25,525 nt of DNA, taken from positions 1 through 25,525 of IMG/VR virus record IMGVR_UViG_3300012000_000116, one strand, 5' to 3'. Origin of the DNA: a virus. The position numbers were made by a program, and so were the translations under genes. Below, one piece after another: positions 11,344 to 25,443 of the stretch (position 1 is its first letter; every line of letters starts with the position of its first letter). Below the pieces are notes generated by a model. That model ran no database searches. It was given only the letters and a program-made list of their open reading frames with translations, and was not told the origin of the DNA.

Positions 11344-11712
11344 TTAACAATAATCCTTACATTTTAAATGAATATTGTGATTATAATCATAATTGTGTTT
11401 TTTGCTAATTGTTTCAACGATATCAATAGATTTATAGTAGTTTGAATCAAGAAGTTTAGAAGATATGAGATTCAAAAGTAATTTTGGTCTTAGAGACTCG
11501 CAAATGATTTCATAAGCATAATCTTCTTTGTTAATAGTTCCAAATCCATAAACACAAAAATATTTATCTGAACTTGGTAGTTCATCAGTAAATACTTGTA
11601 AATCTCGTATAGATGATAAATGTGTAGTGGATGATTCAAAAGATTGAATTCTTTTATTAAAACCATCAATAAATGCGTTAGCCGCACTTTCATAATCTCT
11701 ATAAATGGTCAT
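11344..11712 (-). CDS. Hypothetical protein (122 aa)
   Basis: The product starts MTIYRDYESAANAFIDGFNK and has a central DKYFCVYGFGTINKEDYAYE segment and a His/Tyr/Cys-rich tail. No transmembrane segment or known motif is seen. ATGA coupling to 11709-11924 and a zero gap to the HAD gene place it inside the same transcript. Confidence 0.6.
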   Translation of the reverse strand: MTIYRDYESAANAFIDGFNKRIQSFESSTTHLSSIRDLQVFTDELPSSDKYFCVYGFGTINKEDYAYEIICESLRPKLLLNLISSKLLDSNYYKSIDIVETISKKHNYDYNHNIHLKCKDYC

Positions 11713-11924
11713 TGGTTTCTTTCCACTAATTTTTCAATTCCACCAACAGGCCCATTAACTATCTCCATCATTACTTTATTACATTCTAAAATATCTTGAT
11801 AAATAGTTACCATTTCTTCATAGTTTTCAAATCTAGAAGATAAGCGAAGTTTGCCCAATTTTTTTAGACTGTCTAACTGTTCATTTAGTACGGTTTTAAT
11901 ATCGTCAATATCTTCTTTGTTCAT
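11709..11924 (-). CDS. Small helical protein, paralogue A of the ECNKVMMEI pair (71 aa)
   Basis: The sequence MNKEDIDDIKTVLNEQLDSL ... YQDILECNKVMMEIVNGP closely matches the gene at 14808-15053, with the same spacing throughout. Both look like helical hairpins. The pair appears to be a duplication within the operon; the function is unknown. It has ATGA overlaps at both ends. Confidence 0.7.
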   Translation of the reverse strand: MNKEDIDDIKTVLNEQLDSLKKLGKLRLSSRFENYEEMVTIYQDILECNKVMMEIVNGPVGGIEKLVERNQ

Positions 11925-14642: not shown

Positions 14643-14811
14643 CAGCATAATCCTTATATAACTTATAATTCATTCCAGATACAAATCCACACTGAAAATA
14701 ATAAAAGTCATTATCATTTCCTTCGTGGTCGCCATCCAACCACAATTCTCTTGCTAGTTTTTTAGCACTCTCATATCTTTCTCTGATAATATCTAGTTCA
14801 TCTGAACTCAT
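14623..14811 (-). CDS. Small helical protein with FQCGFVSGMNY motif (62 aa)
   Basis: A short helical protein starting MSSDELDIIRERYESAKKLA and ending DFYYFQCGFVSGMNYKLYKD plus an acidic tail. The F-x-YF-x-x-GF-x-SG-x-xY motif is shared with the gene at 9877-10119, suggesting a second duplicated family in this operon. ATGA coupling upstream. Function unknown. Confidence 0.65.
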   Translation of the reverse strand: MSSDELDIIRERYESAKKLARELWLDGDHEGNDNDFYYFQCGFVSGMNYKLYKDYADENEKK

Positions 14812-15053
14812 ATCATTCTTTCTACTGTTCCTCTTGGGCCTTCAATAATCTCCATCATTACCTTATTACATTCCAGAATATCTTCATAAATAGTTCGCAA
14901 TTGTTCGTAGCCTTCTAACTTAGGAGGTAATCGAAATTTACCCAACCTATTTAGGCTGTCCAACTGTTCTTTGAGAATAAATTTAATATCGTCAATATCT
15001 TGTTTATTCAGAGTTGTGGGTTCTTTTCCCATATTGGTATCTATTCTAGCCAT
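14808..15053 (-). CDS. Small helical protein, paralogue B of the ECNKVMMEI pair (81 aa)
   Basis: From residue 16 the sequence (NKQDIDDIKFILKEQLDSLN ... YEDILECNKVMMEIIEGPRG) matches the gene at 11709-11924 nearly throughout. It has a 15-residue N-terminal extension (MARIDTNMGKEPTTL). The match includes the GP-x-G turn at the C-terminus. A helical hairpin is likely. The function is unknown. Confidence 0.7.
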   Translation of the reverse strand: MARIDTNMGKEPTTLNKQDIDDIKFILKEQLDSLNRLGKFRLPPKLEGYEQLRTIYEDILECNKVMMEIIEGPRGTVERMI

Positions 15054-15923: not shown

Positions 15924-15973
15924 ATTTCGCTGACTGTGACCATCAAATCCAAACCGAAAGGTTGGGCTGGAAC
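15924..15973 (-). repeat. R-element copy 1 (50 nt)
   Basis: First of six copies of the R element. On the minus strand it begins GTTCCAGCCC and ends AGTCAGCGAAAT. The internal hairpin is AACC-tttc-GGTT, whose stem differs from the usual AATCC/GGATT by compensating changes. It lies between the genes at 15983-16168 and 15777-15920. Confidence 0.75.
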
Positions 15974-15982
15974 AATATGAGA

Positions 15983-16229: not shown

Positions 16230-16248
16230 AATTTCAAAGACCCTAAAA

Positions 16249-16298
16249 AATTCGCTGACTACAACCACCAGAACAAAATCCGTAGGATTGGGCGAGAC
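16249..16298 (-). repeat. R-element copy 3 (50 nt)
   Basis: Begins GTCTCGCCC, directly at the TAG stop of the gene at 16298-16492, and ends AGTCAGCGAATT on the minus strand. The hairpin is AATCC-tac-GGATT. Copies 2 and 3 stand in tandem in the same gap. Confidence 0.75.
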
Positions 16299-16856: not shown

Positions 16857-16885
16857 ATTGTAACATACGCGGCGTTGTGACGCAA
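16857..16885 (-). promoter_or_regulatory. Probable promoter (TTGCGT-17-TACAAT)
   Basis: On the minus strand TTGCGT (16885-16880) and TACAAT (16862-16857) are 17 nt apart, directly after a degenerate TAAGTCC/AAGGAGTT hairpin. It would drive the micro-peptide and the membrane-protein genes down to 15439. Confidence 0.6.
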
Positions 16886-16936
16886 CTCCTTGGTTCATAA
16901 GGACTTACAATCACGATCCTCAATCAAAATTTTTTA

Positions 16937-18232: not shown

Positions 18233-18270
18233 AGAATTTTTCCTTTCTGCAAAATCACAAAGACCTTGGT

Positions 18271-18320
18271 TTTTCGCTGACTATCACTAAGACCGCCAAA
18301 TCCGCAGGATTGAGTAAGAC
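18271..18320 (-). repeat. R-element copy 4 (50 nt)
   Basis: Begins GTCTTACTC and ends AGTCAGCGAAAA on the minus strand; hairpin AATCC-tgc-GGATT. It lies within the presumed leader RNA of the 18074-18232 gene. Confidence 0.75.
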
Positions 18321-18411
18321 TTATATTAGATTTGAAAAATAGAAATACAGATTATAATCCTATTATTCTATTATTATTCCTAAGTCCTTTAGCATCAACC
18401 ACTTACGTTTC

Positions 18412-18440
18412 ATTGTATCGTCTACTAGGTCGCTTGTCCA
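18412..18440 (-). promoter_or_regulatory. Probable promoter (TGGACA-17-TACAAT)
   Basis: TGGACA (18440-18435) and TACAAT (18417-18412) on the minus strand are 17 nt apart, just after the composite repeat. It would produce a roughly 180-nt leader before the gene at 18074-18232. Confidence 0.6.
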
Positions 18441-18471
18441 TCACCATTTTTAAGAATCTTCGACAAAGTTT

Positions 18472-18553
18472 CGTAACCCATTGTGGATATTGGACTTACG
18501 ACAAAATTTCGCCGCCGGGTTTGTCATAAGTCCTTGTCTGACAAGCACTTACA
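18472..18553 (-). repeat. Composite hairpin repeat, copy 1 (most complete)
   Basis: On the minus strand it starts with TAAGTGCTTGT...ACAAGGACTTA (10 of 11 bases pair). GGACTTATGACAAA and TTTTGTCGTAAGTCC follow, which also pair around a CGGCGGCG loop, and the copy ends TAAGTCC...GGGTTACG. The ACTTA and TAAGT arms can pair in more than one combination. It lies between the DUF932 gene and the next promoter. A partial copy follows at 18379-18407. Confidence 0.7.
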
Positions 18554-18568
18554 ACAAATGGCGTGAGG

Positions 18569-18615
18569 GTGGAAACCGCCGTAGGTTATTCCCTCTTTCC
18601 CTACGGCGGCTCCAC
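18569..18615 (-). terminator. Strong hairpin after the DUF932 gene
   Basis: A 10-bp perfect stem (CCGCCGTAGG with CCTACGGCGG), extended by GTGGA/TCCAC around a small internal loop, has a 14-nt loop. It begins 18 nt after the stop codon of 18634-19578. Only a short T run follows, so it may stabilise the mRNA 3' end or terminate weakly rather than be a classic intrinsic terminator. Confidence 0.6.
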
Positions 18616-18633
18616 TATCTCCACGAAAGAGCA

Positions 18634-19578
18634 TCAGATTGCGTTGGCAAACTCTAGAGCAGATTCCAACGCCTTATTATTATCATTGGCATTTTGACCG
18701 AACCACAAACTATCAAGGCGATTATCAGTGGTGCGACCCTTACCATAGTTCAGATATTCATTGAACCCGTTATAGGCGGCCCACCAAGTACCGCGAACAT
18801 TAGCCGCAGTCTGTTTCGGGCCTTCGATACGAGCCAGAATATCATCCATAATATTACGGGTACGAGTCTTAATATCCTCGTCAGCACCCTTAATATTCAG
18901 GACAACCTTAACATACTTCTCAATATCCTTCTGGTTGAAACTCTTGCTAGCAAGGAACCGATACTGTTCCGCAGTAGCCTCAAAACCAGCGTTAATATTA
19001 TCCATAATATCGCGGACTTGTTCCAGATTCTTCTGGCTGGAGCGAGTGTGGCGAATACGGATCAGTTTGCTATCATTATGCTTGTGAGCATACGACAGCG
19101 TGTTCACGCAGACCACGCGAATCGGAGTGTATCCGACACGAATAGCCGTTGTACCGTCGTGACTATTACTCAGCAGGATAAACTTGCTAACCTCATCACC
19201 CGGAACAATCTCGCTATTATCTCGGTTGAGTTGAGCAAGCACCCAGACCTTTTGACCGAGATGCAGCGATCCGGCAGTATGGATCGAACACTCGTTAGCG
19301 TCGAGGAAAGGCTGGAACCAATCAAACGCATCCTTATTCTGGAGCGGAGTATAACGAGGGCCGACAACGCCAAGGATGCTGCCATCGCTCTTGCGATAGG
19401 TCGCACGATGGTTCACAGGCGTACCGTCAACGGTCTGCAAATCCTTCAGACCTACTTCCCAATCCAGACCAGCAGCGACGATAGCATCATTCACATTGAT
19501 ACCCTCGTCAACGCTATTGCCAAGGCCATGCCAAGGCGTCTCACCAACAAACATCATCTTTTCAACAGCAGCAGGCAT
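18634..19578 (-). CDS. DUF932 phage/plasmid-like protein (314 aa)
   Basis: The protein matches the DUF932 (phage/plasmid-like TIGR03299) family over its full length. It opens with TPWHGLG near residue 15, then has YRKSDGSILGVVGPRYTPLQ and NKDAFDWF. SLHLGQKVWVLAQL follows, then NSHDGTTAIRVGYTPIRVVC plus VNTL, and a long C-terminal helical half. Members are abundant in phages and plasmids, but their biochemical role is unproven. GAAGGAG precedes the ATG. The gene is clearly richer in G and C, with C-ending codons, than the small genes at 1-17 kb, suggesting selection for high expression or a different origin. It has its own promoter (19621-19648). Confidence 0.9.
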   Translation of the reverse strand: MPAAVEKMMFVGETPWHGLGNSVDEGINVNDAIVAAGLDWEVGLKDLQTVDGTPVNHRATYRKSDGSILGVVGPRYTPLQNKDAFDWFQPFLDANECSIHTAGSLHLGQKVWVLAQLNRDNSEIVPGDEVSKFILLSNSHDGTTAIRVGYTPIRVVCVNTLSYAHKHNDSKLIRIRHTRSSQKNLEQVRDIMDNINAGFEATAEQYRFLASKSFNQKDIEKYVKVVLNIKGADEDIKTRTRNIMDDILARIEGPKQTAANVRGTWWAAYNGFNEYLNYGKGRTTDNRLDSLWFGQNANDNNKALESALEFANAI

Positions 19579-19620
19579 AACTAACTCCTTCGTGTTTAAC
19601 TTCTTCGTTCCGATGCACTG

Positions 19621-19648
19621 ATTCTACCATCTAGTATCGTCTAGTCAA
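19621..19648 (-). promoter_or_regulatory. Sigma70-type promoter of the DUF932 gene (TTGACT-16-TAGAAT)
   Basis: TTGACT (19648-19643) and TAGAAT (19626-19621) on the minus strand are 16 nt apart; the spacer contains CGATACTA and ends GG. The Gp88-like gene has an almost matching promoter (CGATACTA, TAGAAT) at 23250-23278. Confidence 0.7.
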
Positions 19649-19679
19649 GCGGCAAAACTTGTGAAAAAATTTTTTTGTT

Positions 19680-19745
19680 CTAAGTCATTGATTGGCAAGT
19701 ACTTACGCTTCGGCCGCCGCCACCAACTGGACGTAAGTCCTTTAG
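19680..19745 (-). repeat. Composite hairpin repeat, copy 2
   Basis: On the minus strand CTAAAGGACTTACG is followed by GGCGGCGG, CGTAAGTACTT and CAATGACTTAG. ACTTACG pairs with CGTAAGT across the GC-rich core. The TAA stop codon of the phosphoribosyltransferase gene is its first part. The promoter of the DUF932 gene follows about 30 nt later. Confidence 0.7.
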
Positions 19746-20245
19746 TGATCTAGGTTTAGGAGCGGAACCCCGAGATCACGCTTGCAGAGTTTAGAACCAT
19801 CCTCATCATTACGATAAGCACATTCGTTAGGCAGATAGCAATACACACCAACACAATGAGAACACGAGTATTCATCCTTGATTACTTTTTTAATATGTTT
19901 TACGGTTCCACCAGAACAGATTAAATCGTCTAATATAATATATTGAAAAGGGGCCACTCCCTCGGTACGAAACTCTGAATAGCATTGTTCCCCCTTTCTT
20001 ACCACAACAATATTCTTGTTGAGTAACTCTGCGATTTGTGGAACCACCATCAATCCACTTACACCGCAGCAGGCAATACTATCAAAGTCTTTGGCAATCT
20101 TTCGCAGATCACACACGGCCTTAATAATAATCTTATTTCTAGCCTTATGATTTAAAACGTGACAGGTATGGCTAGCACCCTGAATATATTTTCCTTCTGT
20201 AGTTTTACGAACATCCTCAATCTGATTATTCAAAATATTGGTCAT
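19742..20245 (-). CDS. Type I phosphoribosyltransferase-domain protein (167 aa)
   Basis: IILDDLICSGGT (103-114) is the PRPP-binding loop, with the paired aspartates and the GGT that grips the ribose phosphate. The earlier GVSGLMVVPQIAELLNKNIV and then VVRK segment (61-84) fits the pyrophosphate loop. Enzymes of this fold transfer phosphoribosyl groups to nucleobases in salvage, and some act as regulators. The C-terminal third has several cysteines (C125?, CSHC, CAYR, LCKR) that could bind zinc, unusual for the core fold. A tRNA-like gene ends 6 nt before its ATG, leaving no room for a normal ribosome binding site. Confidence 0.8.
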   Translation of the reverse strand: MTNILNNQIEDVRKTTEGKYIQGASHTCHVLNHKARNKIIIKAVCDLRKIAKDFDSIACCGVSGLMVVPQIAELLNKNIVVVRKGEQCYSEFRTEGVAPFQYIILDDLICSGGTVKHIKKVIKDEYSCSHCVGVYCYLPNECAYRNDEDGSKLCKRDLGVPLLNLDH

Positions 20246-20251
20246 AAAAAC

Positions 20252-20340
20252 GATGGACGGCCGGATTCGAACCGACTAAGAAAGGAAAGATAAAGCGATA
20301 TGCTTATAATAGAATACTTGTCCCACCAAGTTGCATCCAT
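20252..20340 (-). tRNA. tRNA-like gene, anticodon arm degenerate
   Basis: The minus strand gives a 7-bp acceptor (ATGGATG with CGTCCAT, one wobble), a 4-5-bp D stem (CTTG/CAAG) and a perfect T arm (GTCGG-TTCGAAT-CCGGC). Total length is 89 nt, as in class II tRNAs. The 40 nt between D and T arms contain only an AAGC...GCTT type hairpin, and no normal 7-nt anticodon loop can be placed. It lies between the acidic-protein gene and the phosphoribosyltransferase gene on one transcript. It may be a decayed tRNA or a tRNA mimic. Confidence 0.55.
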
Positions 20341-20354
20341 CAGACGAGAAAGGG

Positions 20355-20522
20355 CTATTCGTTATCTAGTTCATCCACTACATTATGATAATAGTGTTCG
20401 TACTCTTTTTCATCCTCAAAATCATCATAATCTGGTTCGTCAGAATAGTCAGCATAATCATAGAGTTCTTCTGAATCTTCCACAATACGATCATAATCAA
20501 ACTCATATTCATTTTCAAACAT
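20355..20522 (-). CDS. Extremely acidic, tyrosine-rich protein (55 aa)
   Basis: With the ATG at 20522 (AAGGAG upstream) the protein has 13 Glu, 12 Asp and 9 Tyr in 55 residues, against only one Arg and one Lys. It starts MFENEYEFDYDRIVEDSEEL. The composition is that of DNA-mimic proteins that phages use against host nucleases or repressors, but no fold is recognised and other acidic roles are possible. Its promoter is at 20545-20572. A longer start at 20603 would read through that promoter and the tRNA-Lys gene. Confidence 0.7.
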   Translation of the reverse strand: MFENEYEFDYDRIVEDSEELYDYADYSDEPDYDDFEDEKEYEHYYHNVVDELDNE

Positions 20523-20544
20523 AGCCACTTTCTCCTTTTCCACT

Positions 20545-20572
20545 ATCATACACCAACGAACACGATTGTCAA
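20545..20572 (-). promoter_or_regulatory. Promoter of the acidic-protein gene (TTGACA-16-TATGAT)
   Basis: TTGACA (20572-20567) begins 2 nt after the tRNA-Lys 3' end, and TATGAT (20550-20545) lies 16 nt further. The spacer ends TTGGTG. It drives the acidic-protein gene, the tRNA-like gene and probably the phosphoribosyltransferase gene. Confidence 0.7.
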
Positions 20573-20573
20573 G

Positions 20574-20644
20574 TAGGGGCCGAAGGTAACGCTCCTTCTT
20601 CAATAGATTAAAAGTCTATTGCATCACTTTAATGCTTGACCCCC
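20574..20644 (-). tRNA. tRNA-Lys (anticodon TTT), divergent
   Basis: The acceptor GGGGGTC pairs with GGCCCCT, the D stem is GCAT/ATGC, the anticodon stem is ATAGA/TCTAT with loop CTTTTAA (anticodon TTT), and the T stem is GAAGG/CCTTC. The T loop is AGCGTTA rather than TTCRANN, and position 8 is A, so standard search tools may miss it. It has its own perfect-hexamer promoter at 20657-20684. Confidence 0.7.
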
Positions 20645-20656
20645 GCGAGGAAATCC

Positions 20657-20684
20657 ATTATACCAAGTATTATCGGTTTGTCAA
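20657..20684 (-). promoter_or_regulatory. Consensus promoter for tRNA-Lys (TTGACA-16-TATAAT)
   Basis: Perfect TTGACA (20684-20679) and TATAAT (20662-20657) on the minus strand, 16 nt apart, with CGATA at spacer positions 4-8 and GG before the -10. The predicted start is about 6 nt before the tRNA 5' end. R-element copy 5 ends 17 nt upstream. Confidence 0.8.
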
Positions 20685-20700
20685 GACCAAAAACTTGAAT

Positions 20701-20749
20701 CTTTCGCTGACTATCGCCAAGACTGCAAATCCGAAGGATAGGGTAAAAC
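20701..20749 (-). repeat. R-element copy 5 (49 nt)
   Basis: Begins GTTTTACCC at the 3' end of tRNA-Trp and ends AGTCAGCGAAAG, followed 17 nt later by the tRNA-Lys promoter; hairpin ATCC-ttc-GGAT. It separates two tRNA genes. Confidence 0.75.
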
Positions 20750-20819
20750 AAAGGCGGAGGGAATCGAACCCTCATCTACGGTTTTGGAGACCGTCATTCT
20801 ACCGTTGAACTACGCCAAT
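20749..20819 (-). tRNA. tRNA-Trp (anticodon CCA)
   Basis: D stem GTTC/GAAT, anticodon stem ACGGT/ACCGT with loop CTCCAAA (anticodon CCA) and T arm GAGGG-TTCGATT-CCCTC are all standard. The acceptor ATTGGCG/CGCCTTT has two T-T mismatches at positions 2 and 3, which is odd. The 3' end runs straight into R-element copy 5. Confidence 0.85.
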
Positions 20820-20853
20820 GTTCGTAACTCAGACCGTCAGCCTCCGGTTTGCT

Positions 20854-20881
20854 ATCATACTCTATTATCGACAAGAAGCAA
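20854..20881 (-). promoter_or_regulatory. Promoter for tRNA-Trp (TTGCTT-16-TATGAT)
   Basis: TTGCTT (20881-20876) and TATGAT (20859-20854) on the minus strand are 16 nt apart, with CGATA at spacer positions 6-10 exactly as in the promoters at 983 and 2811. It lies about 35 nt upstream of tRNA-Trp. Confidence 0.6.
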
Positions 20882-20899
20882 GTGAATTCTTTAGTTTTT

Positions 20900-20964
20900 C
20901 TAAGTCTAATCGTACCAAGCACTTATAACTATATCGCGCCGCCATATTTTACCTAAGTCCTTTA
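20900..20964 (-). repeat. Composite hairpin repeat, copy 3
   Basis: Minus-strand arms TAAAGGACTTAGG, core GGCGGCGCG flanked by TAT/ATA, then TAAGTGCTTGG...TAGACTTAG. It lies between tRNA-Gly and the promoter of tRNA-Trp. Confidence 0.65.
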
Positions 20965-20970
20965 TCTATA

Positions 20971-21041
20971 AGCGGATAGAGAGAATCGAACTCTCGTCAA
21001 CTGATTGGAAATCAGTGGCTCTACCATTGAGCTACATCCGC
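20971..21041 (-). tRNA. tRNA-Gly (anticodon TCC)
   Basis: Acceptor GCGGATG/TATCCGC, D stem GCTC/GAGC, anticodon stem ACTGA/TCAGT with loop TTTCCAA (anticodon TCC) and T arm GAGAG-TTCGATT-CTCTC are all well formed. It is the last gene of a five-tRNA run. No CCA is encoded. Confidence 0.92.
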
Positions 21042-21044
21042 AAA

Positions 21045-21131
21045 CGGAATCTGAGGGATTCGAACCCCCGGAGGATTTTAACCCTCGGCGGTTTAGTAAA
21101 CCGCTGCCTTAAACCACTCGGCCAAGATTCC
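21045..21131 (-). tRNA. tRNA-Ser (anticodon ACT, unusual)
   Basis: An 87-nt class II tRNA: acceptor GGAATCT/AGATTCC, anticodon stem GCGGT/ACCGC with loop TTACTAA, long variable arm GAGG...CCTC, T arm GGGGG-TTCGAAT-CCCTC. The anticodon reads ACT, where bacterial tRNA-Ser for AGY codons nearly always has GCT, so base 34 is A instead of G. The class II variable arm supports serine identity. Confidence 0.85.
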
Positions 21132-21134
21132 AAA

Positions 21135-21206
21135 CTGGCTCGGTAGGACTCGAACCTACAACCGGGCGGTTAACAGCCGCCAGCTCGACCATTGAGCTAC
21201 GAGCCA
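21135..21206 (-). tRNA. tRNA-Asn (anticodon GTT)
   Basis: Acceptor TGGCTCG/CGAGCCA, D stem GCTC/GAGC, anticodon stem GGCGG/CCGCC with loop CTGTTAA (GTT), T arm GTAGG-TTCGAGT-CCTAC. It follows 3 nt after tRNA-Gln on the same transcript. Confidence 0.93.
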
Positions 21207-21209
21207 ATA

Positions 21210-21280
21210 TTCCGGGACTACGATTTGAACGTAGAATAAAGGATCCAAAGTCCTCTGTGATACCGTTTCACCATCCCGGA
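21210..21280 (-). tRNA. tRNA-Gln (anticodon TTG)
   Basis: Acceptor TCCGGGA/TCCCGGA, anticodon stem GAGGA/TCCTT with loop CTTTGGA (TTG), T arm CTACG-TTCAAAT-CGTAG. A UUG anticodon reads CAA. It is separated from tRNA-Thr by one base. Confidence 0.9.
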
Positions 21281-21281
21281 G

Positions 21282-21353
21282 AGCCGACAGAGGGAATCGA
21301 ACCCCCGACAGGTTGTTTACAAAACAACTACTCTACCACTGAGTTACGTCGGC
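21282..21353 (-). tRNA. tRNA-Thr (anticodon TGT)
   Basis: Acceptor GCCGACG/TGTCGGC, D stem ACTC/GAGT, anticodon stem GTTGT/ACAAC with loop TTTGTAA (TGT), T arm CGGGGG-type stem with TTCGATT. It begins 2 nt after the stop codon of the membrane-protein gene 21356-21556, so gene and tRNAs are likely one transcript. Confidence 0.92.
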
Positions 21354-21355
21354 AA

Positions 21356-21556
21356 TCATTCATTCATCCCTTTAAGGATTCCAACAATAACAGCCACTCC
21401 AAATAAAATACCCAAACCACCAGCACTAAAACACGCTGATACAATCATAAATCCAAGAACTATCATTACTAAAGTGCCACAACCATTATTATCTGATGGT
21501 GGTAATCGTCTGGCATCTCTACCAGCGTCTCGCCAAAGTCCATACGGGAAATACAT
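21356..21556 (-). CDS. Glycine-rich small membrane protein (66 aa)
   Basis: The N-terminal part is polar (MYFPYGLWRDAGRDARRLPP). It is followed by a long hydrophobic segment (TLVMIVLGFMIVSACFSAGG then LGILFGVAVIVGILKG, about 28-63) that could form two close helices. The promoter at 21570-21598 gives it a very short leader. It is followed at once by five tRNA genes. Function unknown. Confidence 0.7.
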   Translation of the reverse strand: MYFPYGLWRDAGRDARRLPPSDNNGCGTLVMIVLGFMIVSACFSAGGLGILFGVAVIVGILKGMNE

Positions 21557-21569
21557 ATTTCACCTAAAT

Positions 21570-21598
21570 ATCATACTCGTTACGCCATAGTTTGTCAA
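21570..21598 (-). promoter_or_regulatory. Promoter for the membrane gene and tRNA run (TTGACA-17-TATGAT)
   Basis: TTGACA (21598-21593) and TATGAT (21575-21570) on the minus strand are 17 nt apart; the promoter overlaps the stop codon of 21595-21951. It probably drives the membrane protein and tRNA-Thr, -Gln, -Asn, -Ser and -Gly. Confidence 0.65.
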
Positions 21599-21951
21599 TA
21601 GCGTTTCGTGTACGGAGCCGCTTGGGCCTGTTGTCCATAGTTGTATCTCGGTATTCCTTGTGTCCCGTAGGCACTTCCCACGGTTTCTTGACCTTGATTT
21701 TGATAACTTTGCGGCGTCGTGGAATATCGTCGTTGTTCTGGAGCGTAATCATGCCATTGTCCGTTTTCGTGAAGATAAAATACTTTGTCTACATTAGGAT
21801 CGTAAGCCATTAAACAATATTGTATAGGATGCTTTACTGGCGTCAAATGCTTTTGTATTATGGGTATTTTGATATCACCCTTTTGATAATCCTTTAATCC
21901 AGTATACGCTAGCCCTAAGACAGCAACCACTACGCCAATCCATTGTATCAT
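21595..21951 (-). CDS. Membrane-anchored protein with Gln/Tyr-rich tail (118 aa)
   Basis: The start at ATG 21951 (MIQWIGVVVAVLGLAYTGLK) is set by AAAGGA 6-11 nt upstream; earlier in-frame starts lie in promoter-like DNA. One N-terminal transmembrane helix or uncleaved signal is followed by a soluble region. The C-terminus is low-complexity and rich in Q, Y and G (PQSYQNQGQETVGSAYGTQG, then NYGQQAQAAPYTKRY). No known family. The tail resembles disordered, adhesive or virion-associated segments. Confidence 0.65.
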   Translation of the reverse strand: MIQWIGVVVAVLGLAYTGLKDYQKGDIKIPIIQKHLTPVKHPIQYCLMAYDPNVDKVFYLHENGQWHDYAPEQRRYSTTPQSYQNQGQETVGSAYGTQGIPRYNYGQQAQAAPYTKRY

Positions 21952-22022
21952 ACCATTTCCTTTTGTCAATCGTCGCTTCATAGATAGTTTATCGACCACG
22001 ACGAGAAAAAACTTTAATCGTT

Positions 22023-22090
22023 CCTAAGTCATTGATTTGCAAGTACTTAGGATTAGATGGCCGGGCCGCCCTTGTCCTAAGTCGTTTAGG
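22023..22090 (-). repeat. Composite hairpin repeat, copy 4
   Basis: Minus-strand ACTTAGGA and TCCTAAGT pair perfectly (8 bp) around a GGGCGGCCCGGCC core. CCTAAGT...ACTTAGG then forms a second perfect 7-bp stem using the same central arm, so the two hairpins are alternatives. It lies between 22106-22348 and 21595-21951. Confidence 0.75.
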
Positions 22091-22105
22091 ATCAAGGGGT
22101 TACGA

Positions 22106-22348
22106 TTATTCATTATCGTCGCGGCTTAGTTCCCATCCTGCGGCTCTCACAATACTTTTTGTAGAGATTACATTAGTTTTAGAATCAGCACTAATATAGT
22201 CTCTATATCCACGTTCATCAGCATAAAAATATTCATCAATAATATCAAACTTATTAGTCATTAGCAGTCCCGTGATACTAGCCTCAAGAGCATCCTTACG
22301 ACTAATAACAACTTCAAGAGTATTACTCTTTACATAAAACTTAGGCAT
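22106..22348 (-). CDS. Conserved phage protein with ADERGYRDYISADS pattern (80 aa)
   Basis: MPKFYVKSNTLEVVISRKDA, a helix with LLMTNKFDI, then ADERGYRDYISADSK and a C-terminal STKSIVRAAGWEL. The order (Y-V-x-S-x-x-LEVVI, K-FDI, ERG-Y, sxxIxRAAGWE) is a short family seen in many phages, of unknown role. It overlaps the zinc-ribbon gene by 8 nt (ATGCCTAA). Confidence 0.75.
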   Translation of the reverse strand: MPKFYVKSNTLEVVISRKDALEASITGLLMTNKFDIIDEYFYADERGYRDYISADSKTNVISTKSIVRAAGWELSRDDNE

Positions 22349-22514
22349 GGTTCATCTCCGTTCCCAAATACTTCATATCCTCATCACAATCCGCACAAAC
22401 CGGCGTACCAGTATCTTGATACCACCACGGCGTTACATTGATTTCATCCTCACAAGAAACACAACGCCAAACGTGACGGATTTTAGTATCATCAATAACT
22501 TGCCAGATTTCCAT
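22341..22514 (-). CDS. Small zinc-ribbon protein (57 aa)
   Basis: WRCVSCEDEINVTPWWYQDT then GTPVCADCDEDMKYLGTEM gives CxxC pairs at C18/C21 and C40/C43. Around them W-x-x-x-x-G-x-PxC and a final M-x-x-x-x-TEM pattern match a small zinc-ribbon family of phages and cyanobacteria. GGAG lies 6 nt before the ATG. It follows the Gp88-like gene closely and is joined to 22106-22348 by an 8-nt overlap. Confidence 0.8.
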   Translation of the reverse strand: MEIWQVIDDTKIRHVWRCVSCEDEINVTPWWYQDTGTPVCADCDEDMKYLGTEMNHA

Positions 22515-22522
22515 GATAACTC

Positions 22523-23227
22523 CTAGTGGGCAGGAAAGAGAACATTAGCCAGACCGCGAACACACAAGTCACACGATATACTATCCTTCGTGCCAGTGCA
22601 AGTAATAACAGACCGACCACGACGAATCTCGGGACAAGTTACAAACTTTGTGCCGTTCAGCACAACCAGTTTCGGCAAAGATTTACGCCAAGCCTCGGCC
22701 TTGATTTTGCTCTTGGGTCGCTTGGGTGCAATCTTCATATCGCTATCACACCATGCAAACTTTTTGAAACCTTGTGCAAGAGCCTCACCCATATCATTAT
22801 CATCATGCACACTAGCATATACATTCATATACTTTTCCAGACTAACAAGCCGGGAATCGTAGATATGAGTATAAAACCACATATCGGGCAGCGTGTCACC
22901 ATCGGCAAGAATACTCTCACACGCCCACGTTACATTAGCAACATAGTCTAGGTCAAGTTCGCCATTGAGAAACCAGTCGCCACGCTCATGCCAGCGAATA
23001 GACTTTTTACGCTTTTTGGCGTCCAGAATCATAGCACGGATTTTGTTTTTCTCCGTGACTACGTTAGCAAAACCAGCAACGCGAGCATTTTTATACTGAT
23101 TCTCGGTAGCCTCGGCATAGCATCCATTATTGAGATAGTCACAGTCTGGAGGGCAAGTATCGCCAACCGGACGCGAAACCACAATGCAACCCTTACCCAA
23201 CTTATCGTTACCGTCTGCTGTTTTCAT
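22523..23227 (-). CDS. Gp88-like phage protein (234 aa)
   Basis: The N-terminal KLGKGCIVVSRPVGDTCPPD followed by CDYLNNGCYAEA places cysteines at C14, C25, C29 and C36. A central RWHERGDWFLNGELDLDY and a C-terminal VITCTGTKDSISCDLCVRG with three more cysteines complete the pattern. This is the gene product 88 family (PF17338-like) known from mycobacteriophages and other phages. The invariant Cys/His positions suggest metal or iron-sulfur binding, but the function is not established. The gene is more GC-rich, with C-ending codons, than those at 1-17 kb, like DUF932, and has its own promoter. Confidence 0.88.
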   Translation of the reverse strand: MKTADGNDKLGKGCIVVSRPVGDTCPPDCDYLNNGCYAEATENQYKNARVAGFANVVTEKNKIRAMILDAKKRKKSIRWHERGDWFLNGELDLDYVANVTWACESILADGDTLPDMWFYTHIYDSRLVSLEKYMNVYASVHDDNDMGEALAQGFKKFAWCDSDMKIAPKRPKSKIKAEAWRKSLPKLVVLNGTKFVTCPEIRRGRSVITCTGTKDSISCDLCVRGLANVLFPAH

Positions 23228-23249
23228 GGCTTTCTCCCTTGGTCTACCG

Positions 23250-23278
23250 ATTCTACATTATAGTATCGGCACGGTCAA
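23250..23278 (-). promoter_or_regulatory. Promoter of the Gp88-like gene (TTGACC-17-TAGAAT)
   Basis: TTGACC (23278-23273) and TAGAAT (23255-23250) on the minus strand are 17 nt apart. The spacer contains CGATACTA, as in the DUF932 promoter. A composite repeat (23309-23374) lies about 30 nt upstream, the same arrangement as at 19621/19680. Confidence 0.65.
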
Positions 23279-23308
23279 GCGAAAAACTGTGATAAAAATA
23301 TTTTTGTT

Positions 23309-23374
23309 GTAAATCCTTGTGGCATCAGCACTTAGAGCAAAACCGGCCCTCCGAATTCGTCATAAGTCCTTATG
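23309..23374 (-). repeat. Composite hairpin repeat, copy 5
   Basis: Minus-strand TAAGTTATT...AAGGACTTATG, core GGAGGGCCGG, then TAAGTGCTG...AAGGATTTACA. The GC core and both hairpins are more degenerate than in other copies. It separates tRNA-Asp from the Gp88-like gene's promoter. Confidence 0.6.
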
Positions 23375-23388
23375 CTTCAATAACTTAG

Positions 23389-23462
23389 CGAGAGCGACGG
23401 GACTCGAACCCGCAACCTCTAGCGTGACAGGCTAGCGATCTAACCGATTGATCTACGCTCCC
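23389..23462 (-). tRNA. tRNA-Asp (anticodon GTC)
   Basis: Acceptor GGGAGCG/CGCTCTC, D stem GATC/GATC, anticodon stem CTAGC/GCTAG with loop CTGTCAC (GTC), T arm GCGGG-TTCGAGT-CCCGT. Its first ten bases also encode the end and the TAG stop codon of the HNH gene, so tRNA and coding sequence overlap. Confidence 0.92.
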
Positions 23463-23833
23463 GAATTATAAATTATGATACCAGCATGTATTTCACTATG
23501 ACAATTTTTACATACTAATATACATTTATCTAATTCTTTTTTTATTTTAGTTTCATTTTTAGAGAATGACGTATTCTTTATCTTACTTATATTAAAATCT
23601 TTTTTAGATGGATGAATATGATGAAAATCTAAAGATCCAATATATTTATTATATCCACATATAATACAAGAACTACCCTTATATTCAACACATTTTGCCT
23701 TAAAGGCTCTCTGTCGATCTAGAGTATTCTGATGATTACACTTCCTACAATAACTTTGTATTTTCCCCTTACGATTACCAGATTTTACCTTATATGGTTT
23801 CTTTTCTATTTGACCACATTTTACGCATTTCAT
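23453..23833 (-). CDS. HNH endonuclease, probably a free-standing homing type (126 aa)
   Basis: Zinc-finger pairs CVKC (3-6), CRKC (29-32) and CIIC (56-59) precede the HNH core GSLDFHHIHPSKKDF (66-80), LVCKNCHSEIH (106-116). C108/C111 and the terminal H116 complete the metal and catalytic site. It is very AT-rich, lies between two tRNA genes, and its last four codons plus stop are part of the tRNA-Asp sequence, as expected of a mobile endonuclease. A perfect 9-bp hairpin (23844-23870) precedes its ribosome binding site GAGG. Confidence 0.85.
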   Translation of the reverse strand: MKCVKCGQIEKKPYKVKSGNRKGKIQSYCRKCNHQNTLDRQRAFKAKCVEYKGSSCIICGYNKYIGSLDFHHIHPSKKDFNISKIKNTSFSKNETKIKKELDKCILVCKNCHSEIHAGIIIYNSGA

Positions 23834-23843
23834 ATTTTACCTC

Positions 23844-23870
23844 ATGGATAGAATCTAAATATCTATCCAT
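23844..23870 (-). promoter_or_regulatory. 5'-leader hairpin of the HNH gene
   Basis: ATGGATAGA and TCTATCCAT pair perfectly (9 bp, 9-nt loop) just upstream of GAGG and the HNH start codon. A TATAAT (23871-23876, preceded by GGTG) starts next to it, so the hairpin forms the 5' end of the mRNA. It could stabilise the message or control translation timing, as known for some T4 homing endonuclease genes. Confidence 0.6.
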
Positions 23871-23876
23871 ATTATA
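23871..23876 (-). promoter_or_regulatory. -10 box of a probable HNH promoter
   Basis: TATAAT preceded by TTGGTG. No good -35 is present because tRNA-Arg occupies that position. The surrounding TGGTGTATAATATG is the same as at 3418-3423. Confidence 0.4.
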
Positions 23877-23886
23877 CACCAATAAA

Positions 23887-23959
23887 TACTGCCGGAAGGA
23901 TTTGCACCCTCGTGAGTCAACTTAGAAGGTTGATGCCTAATCTACTCGGCCACGGCAGC
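23887..23959 (-). tRNA. tRNA-Arg (anticodon TCT)
   Basis: Acceptor GCTGCCG/CGGCAGT, D stem GCC/GGC, anticodon stem TCAAC/GTTGA with loop CTTCTAA (TCT, reads AGA), T stem GAGGG/CCTTC. The T loop is TGCAAAT, lacking the usual TTC. It lies directly after the terminator hairpin of the gene at 24024-24278. Confidence 0.82.
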
Positions 23960-23965
23960 ATAAAA

Positions 23966-24001
23966 CCGATAGCCGCCAGTTATTCACCAGCGGTCTATCG
24001 G
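23966..24001 (-). terminator. Intrinsic-type terminator of 24024-24278
   Basis: CCGATAG-a-CCGC pairs with GCGG-CTATCGG (11 bp, one bulge) and is followed by TTTTA. It begins 22 nt after the stop codon. tRNA-Arg starts just beyond it, so read-through or a separate start is needed for the tRNA. Confidence 0.7.
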
Positions 24002-24023
24002 ATATTATAACATTATATTATGC

Positions 24024-24278
24024 TCAGGCAACAGCCTCGGCTTCCGATTCAACCTTGCCATTATGAGCATCCCCAGCCTGCTTCGCAGTCACACCAGTGA
24101 CCCTAGCACGCCATACCTTATAACCCTGCTCGCTAAAAGCCTTGACTTCTCCAGCCTTGACGTTAGCATGAACGTCGCTGGGCAGAGCATCGGTCAGACA
24201 GGTGGAGATCGAATCCACCACAACCTCACGGTCAAGATCATCGGCAACAATATCAACAACAAAAGAAAACTTCTTCAT
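24024..24278 (-). CDS. Small hypothetical protein (84 aa)
   Basis: The start at ATG 24278 (MKKFSFVVDIVADDLDREVV) is set by GGAAAGG upstream; a version to 24338 would extend into the promoter. The alternating hydrophobic strand, helix (DSISTCLTDAL) and strand (GYKVWRARVTGV) suggest a ferredoxin-like fold. The C-terminus is Ala/Glu-rich (ESEAEAVA). The gene uses C-ending codons and has two tandem promoters and a terminator, so it is probably highly expressed. No family is recognised. Confidence 0.7.
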   Translation of the reverse strand: MKKFSFVVDIVADDLDREVVVDSISTCLTDALPSDVHANVKAGEVKAFSEQGYKVWRARVTGVTAKQAGDAHNGKVESEAEAVA

Positions 24279-24320
24279 GGTAAAACCTTTCCAAGTAATA
24301 GTAGTAAACCCAACAAACAC

Positions 24321-24349
24321 ATTATACAAGAACCACAATCGCTTGTCAA
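24321..24349 (-). promoter_or_regulatory. Promoter of 24024-24278, proximal (TTGACA-17-TATAAT)
   Basis: Perfect hexamers TTGACA (24349-24344) and TATAAT (24326-24321) on the minus strand with a 17-nt spacer that starts AGCGAT. It is the nearer of two promoters for this gene. Confidence 0.8.
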
Positions 24350-24410
24350 GTTGCCAATCCGAACTTTCTTAGTGTTGGGATCGGTTGGTCGCTTGTCTTG
24401 CGATGCTATC

Positions 24411-24438
24411 AGTATACCATTGTTATCGTCATTGTCAA
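24411..24438 (-). promoter_or_regulatory. Promoter of 24024-24278, distal (TTGACA-16-TATACT)
   Basis: TTGACA (24438-24433) and TATACT (24416-24411) on the minus strand, 16 nt apart, with CGATA at spacer positions 5-9 and GG before the -10. The composite repeat at 24470-24536 lies about 30 nt upstream. Confidence 0.75.
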
Positions 24439-24469
24439 CAGCGGCTCGTGAATGTTTTTTTGCTTTTTT

Positions 24470-24536
24470 CCTAAATCATTGAACCATAAGCACTTACGTC
24501 AAAATCCCGCCGCCGTCCTTGCTCTAAGTCCTTTAG
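24470..24536 (-). repeat. Composite hairpin repeat, copy 6
   Basis: Minus-strand CTAAAGGACTTAG, core GGCGGCGGG, then CGTAAGTGCTTATGG...GATTTAGG. CCTTGCT and AGCAAGG flank the first arm as an additional stem. It begins 16 nt after the stop codon of the L7/L12-like gene. Confidence 0.7.
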
Positions 24537-24551
24537 TAGCAAGGCTTTAAG

Positions 24552-24920
24552 TCAAGAGAGATAACCCTCACAACCCAAAGAGGTCAGATCACGCAGCAAC
24601 CCTTCAGCCGCGTCGGGAGTCTTAGCGGTGAGAGTGATGGGATTACCACCACCAATCAAGAAGCCGCCAGCGTCCCACCGACCCACCATACCATCGGTCC
24701 AATCCTTCGATTCCTTGAGTCCCCAGCCGGTGTGCTGTCGAACAGCCTTGATGCAAGAGATACGGTTGTCCAAATCCATACCCTTGGTGATCGTAACCAT
24801 TCGACGCTGGTTCACACCCAAGACCATCTCAAAAGCCTGCGTGATACGCTCTCTAATATCCTCCCTAGCATAGAAAGAAAGTTCCATAGCCTCACGAACA
24901 CTCAGTTGCAGATTGATCAT
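24552..24920 (-). CDS. Protein with ribosomal L7/L12 C-terminal-like domain (122 aa)
   Basis: Residues 41-72 read MVTITKGMDLDNRISCIKAV and then RQHTGWGLKESKDWTDGMVG. This matches the L7/L12 C-terminal domain pattern (V-x-IK...K-x-x-vIKavR-x-x-tg-lGLKEAKdlVe), the surface that recruits translation factors. The N-terminal 40 residues differ from L12. The ATG at 24920 with GAAGAAAGGG upstream is preferred to a TTG two codons earlier. The gene is comparatively GC-rich. It follows 24923-25348 by 2 nt. Confidence 0.75.
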   Translation of the reverse strand: MINLQLSVREAMELSFYAREDIRERITQAFEMVLGVNQRRMVTITKGMDLDNRISCIKAVRQHTGWGLKESKDWTDGMVGRWDAGGFLIGGGNPITLTAKTPDAAEGLLRDLTSLGCEGYLS

Positions 24921-25354: not shown

Positions 25355-25383
25355 ACTATACCTTATCGACCAATCGTTGTCAA
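25355..25383 (-). promoter_or_regulatory. Promoter of 24923-25348 (TTGACA-17-TATAGT)
   Basis: TTGACA (25383-25378) and TATAGT (25360-25355) on the minus strand are 17 nt apart, and the spacer contains TCGATAAGG. R-element copy 6 ends 10 nt upstream of the -35. Confidence 0.75.
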
Positions 25384-25393
25384 GACCTTTAAA

Positions 25394-25443
25394 CTTTCGC
25401 TGACTACAGCCACTCTAGCCAAATCCGAAGGATTAGGAGAAAC
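25394..25443 (-). repeat. R-element copy 6 (50 nt)
   Basis: Begins GTTTCTCC and ends AGTCAGCGAAAG on the minus strand; hairpin AATCC-ttc-GGATT. It lies between a hairpin after the upstream gene and the promoter at 25355-25383, paralleling copy 5. Confidence 0.75.

Follow-up and report, generated by a model that had tools for sequence, protein, structure and literature searches.

A 90-bp palindromic element of uncultured large phages is helically phased to promoters and probably acts as a multi-copy operator

A 25.5-kb virus record of IMG/VR (IMGVR_UViG_3300012000_000116, the whole of which is called the window here) carries several copies of a 90-bp element between its genes. The same 90-bp element is present in more than 100 IMG/VR stretches, in which it precedes nearly every gene unit of an array. 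It most likely holds a putative protein that controls the array genes. The reading that we consider probable is that of a multi-copy operator or enhancer, i.e., a double-stranded DNA site for this putative protein that shares one face of the helix with each promoter to which it is coupled. Within an uncultured group of large phages, with records of up to 244 kb, the element constitutes a new cis-regulatory module of great regularity and provides a sequence marker for the group. It also predicts a DNA-binding protein, which would read a 90-bp site.

The element is composed of four half-sites of about 15 bp each, with the consensus TTGACGTAAGTCCTT derived from 594 unique copies (281 non-redundant) in transcription orientation. 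The half-sites form two dyads, each with inward-facing arms and a 7-bp spacer, which flank a GC-rich palindromic core of 16 bp resembling GGCCGGCC; the whole element is thus one quasi-palindrome. Read in the direction of the genes, a copy consists of S0 (TAAGTNCTT), 7 bp, S1 (AAGGACTTA), 28 bp with the GC-rich core, S2 (TAAGTNCTT), 7 bp and S3 (AANGACTTA). This layout is rigid. The gap between S1 and S2 is 28 bp in 574 of the 594 unique copies (about 97%), the TAA/TTA cores of S0 and S3 stand at a constant offset in 98-100%, and a distance of 53 bp, about five helical turns, separates the centres of the two dyads. A divergent lineage (L021) has a gap of 27 bp instead of 28 in all five of its aligned elements. 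The strong correlations between alignment columns are those between neighbouring bases, as protein-DNA contacts would give. It is the composite element, and not the single half-site, that is significant: a lone half-site with one mismatch was found 19 times in the window against 9.1 expected, which is scarcely over chance.

The main reason for reading the element as a protein-binding site that acts on the promoter is the promoter coupling itself. A sigma-70-like promoter (score of at least 9.5) follows within 140 bp in 84% of the copies, compared with 12% for shuffled sequence and 11% for sequence upstream. In the record G001, 32 strong promoter matches lie in the 20-kb array against 24 in the other 210 kb. 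The -35 boxes are placed at 71, 82, 92.5, 103.5, 115 and 125 relative to S1, with a period of about 10.6 bp. When one value was taken per mode and downstream-gene group (115 groups, 187 values), the observed periodicity was reached by none of 3000 jittered sets (p<1/3000). Orthologous units in different phages shift by steps of about 10 bp (91/82, 92/102, 103/93), that is, about one turn. The original prediction had placed the element after a stop codon or tRNA, with an AT-rich spacer and then a promoter downstream of it; both this order and a tie to promoter control are supported. With their series of promoters spaced by whole turns, the arrays offer natural material for asking how a complex bound upstream communicates with RNA polymerase. 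In left-array units (e.g., G001, 161-167 kb), there are promoters in which TTGCAA replaces TTGACA, and extra short modules stand between element and promoter, namely GCAAA-N-TGCCA (12% of copies) and CCTTAC-N-GTAAGG (6%).

In the proposed mechanism, a putative phage- or host-encoded protein would bind the two dyads as dimers or as a tetramer. The bound complex would then sit just upstream of an AT-rich, UP-like stretch and the -35 box, on the same helix face, and would set the output of a host-type sigma-70 promoter by contact with RNA polymerase. As the element is repeated 6 to 26 times, each unit of the co-directional, probably early array would have its own controlled promoter. The large subunit of a phage RNA polymerase was not found in any of the 14 records searched, and the host polymerase is therefore expected to transcribe the array. 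Of the possible modes, activation by way of RNA polymerase ranks first in likelihood and loop-type repression second. A -35 box at 92.5 puts the centre of the S2-S3 dyad near -78, and steps of one turn are reminiscent of class I activators. Loop-type repression is the main alternative within the model because a half element of the window (18381..18405, minus strand) overlaps the predicted transcription start of the promoter at 18412-18440, like an auxiliary operator.

Several points weigh against the operator reading. The S0-S1 half of the element lies farther out than classical activators usually reach. No clear promoter accompanies about 16% of the copies, and the left-array promoters are often of the TTGCAA type at 147-160, outside the phasing test, which itself depends on promoters called by consensus match. 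Further, the best located candidate binder, a helix-turn-helix (HTH) protein of 70-78 aa, goes undetected in the phages of clade 2, which bear the element.

An unlikely alternative is that the element is a bidirectional boundary or roadblock, where the palindrome-bound protein would halt upstream polymerases, insulate the next promoter and replace intrinsic terminators in the manner of stoperators. The start of an element does often coincide with, or lie close to, the stop codon of the preceding unit, and elements stand at either end of the array. In addition, there are hardly any intrinsic terminators. The termination role raised by the original prediction is not borne out in its intrinsic form, as a hairpin with a T-run accompanies at most 4% of the copies and none of the window elements; the element does not provide the GC-rich hairpin and U-tract of an intrinsic terminator. 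This suggests that a phage gene block may be organised without such terminators. However, a pure roadblock needs no helical phasing to the downstream promoter. The first array element, moreover, is preceded by divergent late genes, and little polymerase arrives there on that strand. A roadblock or boundary role may still be additional to the operator role, and insulation of promoters by the element is possible. It is also conceivable, though doubtful, that a tetrameric protein bridges 15-26 tetrad sites into one nucleoprotein domain, which would drive the promoters from one face and fence the units. We know of no described phage counterpart for such a combined enhancer-and-boundary element organising an early region.

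The original prediction had suggested an RNA-level device, i.e., two mutually exclusive hairpins serving as an attenuator, a terminator or a processing site. The arms are indeed complementary, coding strand and G-rich strand coincide in 653 of 779 copies, and the RNA fold is more stable than those of dinucleotide shuffles (mean z -2.2), as for any palindrome. However, pairing of S0:S1, S1:S2, S2:S3 and S0:S3 equals the expectation from column composition in the 281 non-redundant copies, with paired minus expected being about zero for all four. The element thus differs from attenuators and riboswitches in having no compensatory pairing changes. The spacing is invariant where loops ought to vary, no U-tract is present, and a promoter is phased downstream of the supposed RNA element. 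An apparent anti-covariation at 9/36 came mostly from G-content orientation and largely faded when transcription orientation was used. The pairing of about 14 bp around the core holds for copy 1 of the window and is not general among the copies. At the Rfam gathering score, only tRNAs were matched, and no described RNA family fits the element. An RNA switch is, therefore, very improbable.

The distribution of the element was followed by several searches. The exact composite pattern occurs in 25 viral-contig stretches, with a length from S1 to S2 of 46 nt in nearly all, and a wider fixed-spacing pattern matched at least 119 viral stretches. A second search pattern was discarded, its matches being mostly unrelated contigs. 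The composite-derived profile found 647 places of at least 25 bits in the fetched loci and none in reversed sequence. The fetched loci, with about one copy per kb, had pointed to a genome-wide repeat, which was rejected on searching a whole record. All 17 copies in the 230.7-kb G001 lie inside 161.3-180.6 kb, an array of about 20 kb. Eleven further records, covered in part, each have an array with 6 to about 25 copies. The array genes are 97% co-directional, small and mostly without annotation. A convergent or divergent placement was an artefact of crude open reading frame calling and gave way to co-directional arrays with a codon-aware caller. The modular intergenic character claimed at the outset is upheld: equal occurrence inside coding regions was looked for, and only 1 of 151 array elements has its centre inside a called gene.

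This confinement to one array, together with positions shared between divergent phages, speaks against a mobile repeat of the REPIN or MITE (miniature inverted-repeat transposable element) kind that invades intergenic spaces, even though the element is palindromic, multi-copy and intergenic. The promoters are helically phased and, in contrast to REPINs, no Y1 transposase (RAYT/IS200-type, as for repetitive extragenic palindromes) was found in the 14 records. It is the least credible of the explanations weighed. Recombination of cassettes, also suggested earlier, would make each dyad the core site of an integron- or Xer-like recombinase, and each element a cassette boundary. The dyads do resemble core sites (inverted arms of about 13-15 bp, 7-bp spacer), the cassettes would be of about 1 kb, and gene content is variable towards the left of the array. 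Yet shared gene order is conserved in 2186 cases against 356, adjacency is 0.52 across elements against 0.61 within units, and, for a given pair of genes, relatives agree in 320 cases on whether an element lies between them and disagree in 22. The Phage_integrase domain did not exceed its curated cut-off in any of the 14 records (one weak sub-threshold match in G005), and resolvases or serine recombinases were found in none of them. The recombination reading does not stand up to these data and is highly improbable. Conserved order and positions, with neither a recombinase above cut-off nor a Y1 transposase in the 14 records, indicate a vertically inherited regulatory feature and not a mobile or recombining one.

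Among known systems, the element is best read as acting like the multi-copy phage operators, although it lacks defining features of both types described. SPBRE is a 15-bp repeated operator motif of the Bacillus phage SPbeta; its repressor MrpR has a tyrosine-recombinase fold and gave nine ChAP-seq (chromatin affinity precipitation sequencing) peaks spread over the prophage (PMC10516654). Like the element, SPBRE is a phage repeat at intergenic and promoter regions, first known as a repeat and only later as an operator, and the targets of tyrosine-recombinase folds are inverted arms like the dyads here. In contrast, the element is a differently organised tetrad of 15-bp half-sites that spans 90 bp, and it is restricted to one array. 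An MrpR-like protein was not seen among the 14 records, as judged by Phage_integrase matches above cut-off, which a very diverged MrpR type could escape. The stoperators of cluster A mycobacteriophages (L5 repressor family) are 13-bp, asymmetric, bound by monomers and scattered over the genome (PMC9283540). They share with the element the many copies in short intergenic spaces and the correlation with transcription direction, whereas the copies here are 90-bp palindromic tetrads, set in one array and phased to promoters.

Two further comparisons are of interest. The four half-sites in one large palindrome between units of about 1 kb are reminiscent of integron attC sites, which have four box-like half-sites in one large palindrome between gene cassettes of about 1 kb. 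The attC sites conserve structure and not sequence, whereas sequence and spacing are kept here, S0:S3 and S1:S2 show no covariation, and no integrase above cut-off was found in the 14 records. In the host-takeover or early modules of SPO1 and T5, small genes run in one direction under strong promoters of the host type, as in the block described here. To our knowledge, no comparable 90-bp palindromic element stands before each SPO1 or T5 promoter. The SPO1 cluster is mentioned in PMC6873191.

In the element-bearing part of the window, all genes are on the minus strand, and the tRNAs number eight. All six complete copies claimed earlier were found, on the minus strand and hence in gene direction, with consecutive copies 1.13-1.28 kb apart. 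Copy 6 (24466..24555; profile 67 bits) has S0 at 24541-24549, S1 at 24525-24533, the core at 24503-24518, S2 at 24488-24496 and S3 at 24472-24480; a sigma70-type promoter, TTGACA-N16-TATACT (24411..24438), follows with its -35 box at element position 95. Copy 5 (23304..23393; 60 bits) is followed by TTGACC-N17-TAGAAT (23250..23278; position 93) and copy 4 (22019..22108; 56 bits) by TTGACA-N16-TACAAT (21942..21969; position 117). Copy 3 (20895..20984; 32 bits) precedes a weak promoter-like site (20859..20886; 8/12 matches). A start near a tRNA end had been noted, and two copies in fact extend into tRNA genes at the 3' end, copy 5 into tRNA-Asp (23388-23462) and copy 3 into tRNA-Gly (20971-21041), where its S0 is degenerate. 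In copy 2 (19675..19764; 44 bits), S1 abuts the stop codon of a phosphoribosyltransferase-like gene (19742-20245); its promoter, TTGACT-N16-TAGAAT (19621..19648; position 94), lies upstream of a DUF932 gene (18634-19578). Directly after this gene comes copy 1 (18468..18557; 54 bits), the last complete one, with a promoter-like TGGACA-N17-TACAAT (18412..18440; position 95). The -35 positions are thus 93-95 for four of the six promoters and 117 for one. All these promoters and promoter-like sites are on the minus strand.

The two copies reported as partial are present, each being a single dyad, i.e., half an element, on the minus strand. One is the half element mentioned above, TAAGTGGTT-N7-AAGGACTTA (16 bits), about 120 bp past the last complete element; G008 and G002 likewise have half elements 122-128 bp after their last element. 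The other is an isolated, degenerate dyad at about 16884..16908 (19 bits). The window also has at least five copies of a second intergenic repeat (TTCGCTGACTAYNNCC ... AAATCCGNAGGATTNGG on the plus strand), at 15924-15975, 16237-16298, 18259-18320, 20688-20751 and 25382-25443. Some of them contain an AATCC-TTCG-GGATT-like hairpin on the coding strand, and no Rfam match was obtained for this repeat. Outside the array, two small genes (11709-11924 and 14808-15053) are 78% identical over 175 nt, a likely duplication.

A large-terminase gene lies about 4-6 kb from the array in several records, and a DUF932/TIGR03299 gene is conserved at the far end. The near end is adjoined by a sigma-70 region-2-like gene, one being held by 13 of the 14 records, and by an HTH-type protein (cluster 46). 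In clade 1, it also has the protein of 70-78 aa, with a predicted three-helix HTH, an invariant RRQRRKL and an AT-hook-like RGRPxK tail (L095:4927-5148, minus strand; orthologues in 34 loci). In all clade-1 phages covered, its gene directly adjoins the first element on the left. No homologue was found in INPHARED phages by tblastn, and a fold search of the PDB gave no confident match. The protein (cluster 31) is a candidate binder, though not a universal one if clade 2, which keeps the element and in which the gene is undetected, truly lacks it; as the universal binder it was rejected.

The best cultured-phage matches of the terminase show about 25% identity across 74% of its length, and the group is thus taken to be uncultured. 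A single consensus query of cultured phages returned nothing comparable, though such a query is insensitive to so degenerate a site. No element is present around the DUF932 genes of a huge phage of 595 kb and of a Methylophilales phage, and no description of it was found in literature searches. The motif was also sought in bacteria, as had been proposed. Among 84,980 species genomes, it occurs, in several copies each, only in two short contigs (L217, L219) of metagenome-assembled genomes. Both look like misbinned phage DNA and a Hymenobacter match was due to chance; a host origin was rejected. Subtilases with a LExRxLLS-type start lie just left of the arrays in G009, G011, G012 and G014, and also in L217; we take this start to be like that of planctomycete surface proteins, a possible host clue that family libraries left unconfirmed. 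Lastly, a protein of 5078 aa is encoded in the tail-gene region (L185 and the start of L186; G001 85360-100596). It is probably the tape measure protein, which would mean an exceptionally long tail.

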